Source: Candidatus Synechococcus calcipolaris G9 (GTDB taxonomy: Bacteria > Cyanobacteriota > Cyanobacteriia > Thermosynechococcales > Thermosynechococcaceae). Taken from it: DNA of 64,000 nt. A model generated the notes under the pieces. It saw nothing but the letters and a program-made list of their open reading frames with translations. It did no database searches and was not told the DNA's origin. The DNA lies in contig NZ_JAKKUT010000008.1 in assembly GCF_029582805.1 (NCBI RefSeq), positions 186,001 through 250,000 on the forward strand, in the 5' to 3' direction. A program made the position numbers and the translations under genes. Numbering within the stretch: position 1 is the first letter of the stretch; the number at the start of each line of letters is the position of its first letter. Shown piece after piece: positions 53,435 through 55,720 of the stretch.

Positions 53435-55720
53435 TTGCTAGGATCAGAATTAACCTCTGCCCCCAACAAAACCCCCAATAAAATCGTGGTCAATTTTCTG
53501 CCCCGCTCCTGGACTTTACCAAAACTATCTCCGTTGCCTGCGGCGGCGATCGAAGATTCTCGACTCCTGCGCCTAGGGGTTCTGCTCATGGTGTGCGTGG
53601 GCTTGGTAGCAACGGATGTGGCCGCAGAGGAGACCTGGATGAGTGTGTGGGCGATTCCCGCGACAGTGGTGGGCTTTGGCTGGAGTTACCGGGCGCGGCG
53701 AGATCGCAATCTTGTGGCTAAGTTTTTGATTGCCCTGGGAATGATCGTTGCCCTCGTGATTTTTCTGTCCCAATTGGCCAGTTTTGCCCAGGATTCCCGA
53801 CTGTTGTTAACGAAATTATTAATTCAACTCCAAGTTCTCCATAGTTTTGATTTGCCTCGCCGCAAGGATCTGGGCTATTCAATGGTGATTGGTTTGATTT
53901 TAATTAGTGTGGCCGCCACCCTGAGTCAAACCATGACCTTTGGTCTGTTCCTATTTATTTTTTTGGCGATCGCCCTGCCGGTATTAGTCCTGGATTATCG
54001 ATCCCGCCTAGGATTGCTTCAGGTGAGGTTAAAGGGCATCGGCCTATCTCCCCGCCAATGGCTGGCCACCCTGGCCCTGGTGCTGGGTTTGGGAATGCTG
54101 ACGTTTCTATTGTTGCCCCGTCTACCCGGCTATCAAATTCGCACCTTGCCGGTGAGTGCGGATATTCAAGTGCAGGAGCAGTTTGACCAAACCCGTGTGG
54201 TGAATCCCGGCTATGTGGGCCGGGGCGGGCGATCGGGCCAGGGGGGAGACGACCTAGAAAATATTCAATTTGATTCTACGTTTTATTACGGTTTTGATAG
54301 TGAAATCAACCAGACCCTTGGGGGAGAACTGGAACCCGAGGTATTAATGCGGGTGCGTTCCCAAGCCCCAGGATTTTGGCGGATGATTGCCTTTGATGAA
54401 TATACGGGCCGGGGATGGCGACTGAGCCGGAATGAAGATGCCGAGATACTGCAACGATCGCCCTGGAGTTATCGATTTTCGATACCCAGTGAAATTGCCC
54501 TCGGCCCCACCAGAGAAGTGGTACAAACCTACTCGATTTTGCGGGAGTTTAGTAACCTAATTCCCCACTTGAACCATCCCAGGGATGTATTTTTCCCCAC
54601 CCAGGAAATTGCCCTAGATGCCGCCGGCGGATTGCGGGCCCCCCTCACCTTGCCCGATGGACTCACCTATTCGGTCATTTCCCAGGTTCCCCTCCGCGAT
54701 CGCTCCCAGTTGCGCCAGGCCCCCAGGGAGTATCAGCCAGAGATACGTCGGCTCTATTTGGCCATTCCCCCAGAGATTGCCCCCGCCGTTCGCCAACAAA
54801 CGGAGGCCTTACTCCAACGCAGCGATCGCCCGATTAGCGAACCCTACGAGCAGGCCCTTTATTTAGCCCAAGCCCTCAAGCAAAACTATTTTATTCAGCC
54901 CAACCTTCCCCCCCTAGACAGGGATCAGGATCTGGTGGAAGCCTTTCTCTTTCAAAATGAGGGGGGCTACCCGGATCAATTTTCCACAGTGTTAACGATC
55001 ATGCTCCGCAGTATCGGCATTCCCGCCCGCTTGGTGACGGGCCTGGGAACGGGGGAATTTAATCCCTTTACGGGCCTCTATGTGGTCAAAAATACCGATG
55101 CCTACGCCCTGACGGAGGTCTTTTTTCCCAATTATGGCTGGTTCACCTTTGATCCGATTCCCGGCCATGATCTCTACCCAGCATCCCTGGAAGTAGACCA
55201 AACCTTTACGGCATTACAACAATTCTGGAATTGGATCGCCCAGTGGTTGCCCACACCCGTGACTGGTGCCCTCGGCAACCTTTTTGCCCTAGTGGATACA
55301 GCGATTCAGAAATTCCTGGGTTTATTTTCCCAAGGCATTGGCGGCATTCTGCGGGGGGTGATCATTTTGTTTGGAGCCGGGGCGATCGCCTGGTTTAGCT
55401 TGCAACTGCTCGGACAATGGCGATATCGGAAACGGTTAGGTCGCCTGGCAAAAATGGAGCGGCTCTACCAGGAAATGTTAGATTGGCTGGCCCAGCAGGG
55501 ATACCCCAAACCCCTGAGTCAAACCCCCCTGGAATATGGGTTCAATCTGGGCGATCGCCTAGAGGCTCCCCAGCAAAATATTGTTCTTGCCATTACCGAT
55601 GCCTACGTGGCCTGGCGGTATGGACAAACTACGCCTGAGATCACCACCTTAGAAAAGCAGTGGCAAGACTTACGGCGACGGGGCATCAAAAAGACTAAGG
55701 CAACCTCAACCAGCCGTTAG
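53435..55720 (+). CDS. TgpA-like transglutaminase-domain membrane protein, apparent pseudoenzyme
   Basis: A ~760-aa DUF3488/transglutaminase-like protein: about six N-terminal spans (residues ~45-215), an extracytoplasmic transglutaminase-like domain (~260-610), one further span (GVIILFGAGAIAWFSLQLLG) and a C-terminal DUF4129-like helical domain. In the core, the position of the catalytic GYCEHF reads GYPDQFS and that of DAHAW reads DAYAL, so Cys and His are both replaced; Asp in FDPIPGH remains. Start is uncertain: TTG at 53435 or GTG at 53486. Followed after 33 bp by sugar permease genes. Confidence 0.85.
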   Translation: MLGSELTSAPNKTPNKIVVNFLPRSWTLPKLSPLPAAAIEDSRLLRLGVLLMVCVGLVATDVAAEETWMSVWAIPATVVGFGWSYRARRDRNLVAKFLIALGMIVALVIFLSQLASFAQDSRLLLTKLLIQLQVLHSFDLPRRKDLGYSMVIGLILISVAATLSQTMTFGLFLFIFLAIALPVLVLDYRSRLGLLQVRLKGIGLSPRQWLATLALVLGLGMLTFLLLPRLPGYQIRTLPVSADIQVQEQFDQTRVVNPGYVGRGGRSGQGGDDLENIQFDSTFYYGFDSEINQTLGGELEPEVLMRVRSQAPGFWRMIAFDEYTGRGWRLSRNEDAEILQRSPWSYRFSIPSEIALGPTREVVQTYSILREFSNLIPHLNHPRDVFFPTQEIALDAAGGLRAPLTLPDGLTYSVISQVPLRDRSQLRQAPREYQPEIRRLYLAIPPEIAPAVRQQTEALLQRSDRPISEPYEQALYLAQALKQNYFIQPNLPPLDRDQDLVEAFLFQNEGGYPDQFSTVLTIMLRSIGIPARLVTGLGTGEFNPFTGLYVVKNTDAYALTEVFFPNYGWFTFDPIPGHDLYPASLEVDQTFTALQQFWNWIAQWLPTPVTGALGNLFALVDTAIQKFLGLFSQGIGGILRGVIILFGAGAIAWFSLQLLGQWRYRKRLGRLAKMERLYQEMLDWLAQQGYPKPLSQTPLEYGFNLGDRLEAPQQNIVLAITDAYVAWRYGQTTPEITTLEKQWQDLRRRGIKKTKATSTSR

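Follow-up and report, generated by a model that had tools for sequence, protein, structure and literature searches.

The window, the whole 64,000-nucleotide stretch of DNA analysed here, carries an unbroken open reading frame of 761 codons for a TgpA-type protein, as seen in the ORF listing and the translation (Table 1). The first-pass annotation had reported no frame damage, and its coordinates, strand and intact frame are all correct; a frameshift or pseudogene is ruled out by the open frame together with dN/dS values well below 1 in relatives. Pfam finds three domains in the protein, TgpA_N (81.2 bits against a cut-off of 30, residues 50–421), Transglut_core (70.2 against 23), and a DUF4129 tail (43.5 against 24.8), and the remaining match, to Cas1_AcylT, lies below its cut-off (E up to 1). 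The directly adjoining ORFs encode a hexapeptide protein and what we take to be an ABC permease pair, and the neighbourhood also includes Ycf54 and a presumably SecA-like ORF. These neighbours do not form a conserved cluster: one search gave no match, and another gave a single weak ABC match in 28 loci.

Table 1. Position of the pseudo-TgpA gene and its parts, in window coordinates
Feature	Position	Strand	Details and source
Pseudo-TgpA gene	53435..55720	+	761 aa; listed start TTG, other start possible; ORF listing, translation, Pfam
Membrane part (residues 43-229) with seven predicted helices	53561..54121	+	AlphaFold helices 43-63 to 206-229; TgpA_N match
Extracytoplasmic transglutaminase-fold region, residues 282-585	54278..55189	+	pLDDT; Z vs 6g49
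Pro513 codon, catalytic Cys position, first residue of helix 513-526	54971..54973	+	6g49 alignment, residue table, DSSP
Gln515 codon	54977..54979	+	His here in 153/166 counted relatives
Tyr557 codon, catalytic His position	55103..55105	+	6g49 alignment, residue table
Asp573 codon, retained triad Asp	55151..55153	+	6g49 alignment, residue table
Long helix 635-670, probably containing the last membrane span	55337..55444	+	AlphaFold model
DUF4129 domain, residues 677-746	55463..55672	+	Pfam

The AlphaFold model of the window protein, built from 49 aligned sequences, has a mean pLDDT of 78.1, with 76–97 per ten-residue block across residues 281–580. It lays out seven N-terminal helices, the transglutaminase region, a long helix, and then the tail. 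The PDB has a single strong sequence relative (E 4e-12), the structure 6g49 of the periplasmic domain of TgpA from Pseudomonas, which is also the top structural match (3.3 Å over 262 residues; Foldseek E 1.7e-14). The next family in the fold list is far lower (3isr, Z 13.0), and protein 4.2 is listed as well, at Z 9.9. The model therefore retains the TgpA fold (Z 24.3 to 6g49); modelling of the fold had been proposed in the first-pass annotation.

The Cys-His-Asp triad of a catalytic transglutaminase is incomplete in this protein. Its core motifs read GGYPDQFST (510–518), NTDAYAL (553–559), and FDPIPGH (572–578), and in the HMMER alignment SGFCAHY of 6g49 pairs with GGYPDQF, DAHAW with DAYAL, and VDP with FDP. 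The catalytic Cys is thereby replaced by Pro513 and the His by Tyr557, and Asp573 is retained, just as had been claimed from the letters of the sequence. In the model, DSSP places Pro513 at the opening of helix 513–526, and it is at this position that transglutaminases carry their nucleophile. It had been allowed that other residues of the protein might fill the triad; for Cys this fails, since the only one present is residue 54 (ORF position 73 minus 19), within the predicted membrane helix 43–63, which leaves the triad without a substitute Cys. A misalignment or a hidden triad is ruled out by this single membrane Cys and by the well-aligned flanking columns. Gln515 of GGYPDQF is itself unusual among the relatives (Table 1).

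The gene is widespread. A strong match (E under 1e-100) is present in 46 of the 58 nearest genomes, the figure for the window's own family being 26 of 29, and a profile search of whole genomes gave any match in 142 of 291 genomes of the phylum, with a profile built from Cys-less rows and sequence taken for part of its matches. The genome scan covers the best 80 of 501 confirmed loci, and one of the two patterns it uses, FNPFTG[LYF]Y, could be biased towards Cys-less proteins; the 291-genome search uses no pattern of this kind. We aligned 228 loci, corresponding to 207 distinct proteins, and counted as full-length relatives 167 of these, namely those that score at least 590 and L048, the 167 being distinct proteins that are not species-balanced. 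Among them the Cys site is P in 153, A in 9, E in 2, and G, V, and I in one each, and Cys occurs in none, so its absence from the window protein reflects neither chance nor an isolated mutation. The tabulation that the first-pass annotation had called for thus bears out the loss of Cys (167 of 167) more fully than that of His, which is less uniform: the His site is Y in 134, F in 11, and Q in 4, and His is kept in 18. The Asp site is D in 155 and N in 11, and is cut off in one protein. Ten loci without an ORF across the motif do not enter the residue table (L001, L003, L004, L064, L066, L067, L068, L191, L198, and L230); L064 nonetheless reads GGYPDHF. Judged from sequence, loss of catalysis in the window protein and its relatives is well supported.

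Homologues from the other classes of the phylum, which we take to be non-photosynthetic sister groups of Cyanobacteriia, resemble these proteins in being full-length relatives and form their sister group in the trees. They differ in keeping the C-H-D triad intact (GYCEHF-like, AH, and FDPTPG-like) in 17 of 17 cases, an 18th (L191) being interrupted by stops and left uncounted. A Photo_RC match was found in none of 18 other-class genomes, against 10 of 10 same-class genomes tested. The idea that Cys is not tolerated at this position in photosynthetic cells was rejected, as Cys is kept in all 23 other transglutaminase proteins examined, a set that mixes same-class and other-class genomes and has His in 23 and Asp in 20, with Glu in 3. 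The pseudo-TgpA gene is absent or broken in several lineages and is therefore not essential everywhere. One decayed copy (L198; G168:C1:2402500-2404700) lies in pieces in a one-contig genome, with none of the pieces over the transglutaminase core.

The trees point to the same division. In a 92-row tree the Cys-less proteins fall on one side of a branch with an SH-aLRT of 100, the Cys-bearing full-length homologues have 91, and the Cys state changes once. A quick 69-row tree built without the motif columns keeps the grouping and the single Cys change, with a support of 8 for the Cys-less group; a careful 50-row tree, also without these columns, gives 94/76 for the Cys-less group and 100/95 for its Cys-bearing sister group. 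Within the Cys-less group of the 50-row tree the deepest branch, a long one, consists of L046 and L199, and we suspect that these two are the weak point of its support. As every outgroup row carries Cys, one loss is the simplest reading, and there was apparently a single ancient loss of Cys, with uneven branch support. The proposal that the change is shared across cyanobacteria is thus upheld by the absence of Cys in all 167 relatives, the intact sister classes, and trees on which a single change suffices. Within the Cys-less group of the 69-row tree the His state has switched 10 times or more, and repeated changes are expected at this site because the nucleophile is already gone.

MoxR and DUF58 are the usual partners of TgpA, in a MoxR-DUF58-TgpA gene cluster. 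No such cluster lies at the window locus, and the genome's MoxR-DUF58 pair is elsewhere; a row of MoxR, DUF58, and DUF4350 genes in the window's genome (L257; G000:C2:1502000-1513500) is without a full-length TgpA relative. A MoxR ATPase gene lies directly upstream of the Cys-bearing other-class homologue at three loci (L252, L253, and L255), and the upstream ORFs of several other tested loci of this kind are not MoxR. TgpA itself (P. aeruginosa PA2873; PDB 6g49, 6g4h) shares with the window protein TgpA_N and Transglut_core, membrane binding, an extracytoplasmic domain, and the fold. Unlike the window protein, it keeps the triad; its purified domain has been assayed for transglutaminase activity, and it is described as important for the viability of Pseudomonas aeruginosa (PMC3507681, in the portion available).

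Inactive membrane transglutaminases are already known. RloB of Pseudomonas is reported to combine an inactive transglutaminase, predicted to be periplasmic, with seven membrane helices, and its mutants to have cell-morphology and ampicillin phenotypes (PMC12239564, in the text accessible). RloB differs from the window protein in being, according to the same text, mostly proteobacterial, and in having an operon that also encodes a retropepsin and an ATP-grasp protein. The window protein, unlike RloB, matches TgpA_N and DUF4129; Pfam names no other transglutaminase family for it, and it is adjoined by the hexapeptide and ABC permease ORFs rather than by the RloB partners. Loss of catalytic residues from the transglutaminase fold, with use of the fold in binding or as a scaffold, has been described for EPB42/protein 4.2, Rad4, FBXO21, and menin (PMC10318531, in part), which differ in being eukaryotic and in having other domain layouts.

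Selection gives the main argument on function. Median dN/dS (NG86; non-independent pairs with 0.1 < dS < 1.2) over residues 505–580 is 0.039 in one genus of the window's family (37 of 55 pairs used) and 0.031 in Nostoc-type relatives (163 of 190 pairs used), compared with 0.089 and 0.116 for the membrane part and 0.111 and 0.115 for the C-terminal part. The altered catalytic region thus has the lowest dN/dS of the protein in both groups. Of the 167 relatives, 99% have Asp at position 514, where the sisters carry Glu or Gln; at position 542 the relatives nearly always have Phe and the sisters mostly Tyr. This tight constraint on the altered site in its new form is the chief reason we give for a binding role. 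Of the "selected non-catalytic binding domain" put forward in the first-pass annotation, the selection is borne out by these values, and the binding part is plausible. Our preferred reading is that the protein serves in the envelope as a binding partner or scaffold without catalysis, probably binding rather than catalysing. We give about an even chance to the full reading, that of an ancient, selectively maintained TgpA-family pseudoenzyme with a non-catalytic binding role, acting in the cell envelope.

The strongest competitor is that the transglutaminase fold is a structural remnant, needed for folding or assembly, and that function resides in the membrane part or in DUF4129. The membrane-part loops (FDLPRRKDLGYS) are conserved as strongly as the core, as this account would have it, but a bare scaffold is not expected to be tightest in the altered catalytic region, where dN/dS is lowest, and we regard the account as possible though doubtful.

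For a pseudoenzyme with a binding role, the mechanism may be pictured as follows. The seven-helix membrane part would anchor the domain on the periplasmic or thylakoid-lumen side. The old acyl-substrate groove, lined by Pro and Asp instead of Cys and Glu, could bind a peptide ligand without reacting with it, and the last helix might relay binding to membrane partners or the DUF4129 tail, in signalling or scaffolding. The most likely site of action would be the cell envelope, in wall growth or at the septum, because the gene adjoins hetZ-patU, murI, and a cell-wall amidase gene in many lineages.

In filamentous lineages the pseudo-TgpA gene immediately follows hetZ-patU, and murI and the cell-wall amidase gene are often close by. 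In 58 of 80 named loci the gene is directly preceded, on its own strand, by HetZ-like and patU-like ORFs. Genes for solanesyl diphosphate synthase (43 loci), glutamate racemase (38), and a cell-wall amidase with an Amidase_3 domain (36) are often present upstream. Single representatives were tested: the first upstream ORF passes the NCBIfam cut-off for HetZ (652.7 against 550), MurI and Sds pass theirs, and the amidase passes Pfam's. The second upstream ORF is called PatU by position, since hetZ and patU3 adjoin in Anabaena according to the available parts of PMC2821919 and PMC12288457. Among 62 genomes, drawn from 73 with any HetZ match (the other 11 being weak and partial, E ~1e-17 to 1e-25), hetZ lies 1.1–4.6 kb upstream on the same strand in 47 and does not in 12, and 3 are without a full-length pseudo-TgpA gene. 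Several loci depart from this arrangement. At L218 (G077:C1:3382000-3385200) the HetZ-like and pseudo-TgpA matches share one 943-aa open frame, as though patU and some of the membrane region had been deleted and the two genes joined. The genomes G103, G276, and G137 have a full HetZ match and no full-length pseudo-TgpA. At L097 and L139 the gene adjoins the solanesyl synthase gene (sds) with no hetZ-patU between, and L139 also has murI and the amidase gene. A conserved ORF of ~167 aa lies just upstream of hetZ on the opposite strand (L110, 4809-5309, minus strand, and 57 other loci), and where hetZ-patU is missing it directly precedes the pseudo-TgpA gene; a representative has no Pfam or NCBIfam match.

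One could take this synteny to mean that the protein is a heterocyst or pattern-formation factor acting with HetZ-PatU. The synteny is tight in 11 family codes of one sample, and PatU3 is reported to restrict septal peptidoglycan (wall) synthesis (PMC12288457, as far as its text is available). The protein is nevertheless present in lineages that lack hetZ, and L097 and L139 keep it beside sds without hetZ-patU. The window's own family is among these lineages, with hetZ in 0 of its 29 genomes, so the pseudo-TgpA does not depend on hetZ, and we think this role improbable. As the window's family lacks hetZ and the window neighbours are not conserved, the link to the envelope is borrowed from relatives.

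A third account holds that the protein is still an enzyme, with other chemistry carried out, for example, by Asp514, His515, or a Ser or Thr of the same helix. The near-invariance of Asp514, where the sisters have Glu or Gln, and the high conservation of GG-x-x-D-H-F would fit such a change. Residue 513 varies, however (P, A, G, V, I, or E), His515 gives way to Q or Y in 13 of the 166 counted relatives, the window protein included, and the window protein's domain is without any Cys; we rate new chemistry as quite improbable. Pseudoenzymes often act as regulators, yet control of an active transglutaminase by the pseudo-TgpA of its own cell is in our view very improbable: Cys-bearing transglutaminase proteins are present in many of the same genomes, but many relatives have a single match only, and in the window's genome nothing else matches the protein and the three other Transglut_core proteins all have other layouts, so that no catalytic twin of the same family is needed there and regulation of an active twin in that genome is unlikely.

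Extending the favoured binding role back in time, one may imagine that when the core oxygen-evolving cyanobacteria arose, or close to that point, a wall-associated transglutaminase turned into a non-reactive peptide-binding receptor, that this receptor was later fixed as a partner in wall growth, and that in filamentous lineages it was also fixed as a partner of the HetZ-PatU system, which couples septal wall synthesis to differentiation. We offer this scenario as a long shot.

In the literature, proteins of this kind match transglutaminase models and have been treated as working enzymes. The available portion of PMC9284123 describes the "transglutaminase" beside patU in Mastigocladus as a stop-codon pseudogene, calls its counterpart in Nostoc PCC 7120 functional, and discusses photoprotection for the gene beside patU there. 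We found in that portion no mention of the missing triad, and we found no description of a lineage-wide triad loss in cyanobacteria in the parts of the open-licence literature available. Should the loss of the catalytic residue date to the base of the group, inferences that assume a working enzyme would be wrong, and a conserved, putative envelope protein encoded next to hetZ-patU would become directly testable. The family would also be an example of an enzyme that became a non-enzyme while both forms persist in a single phylum.
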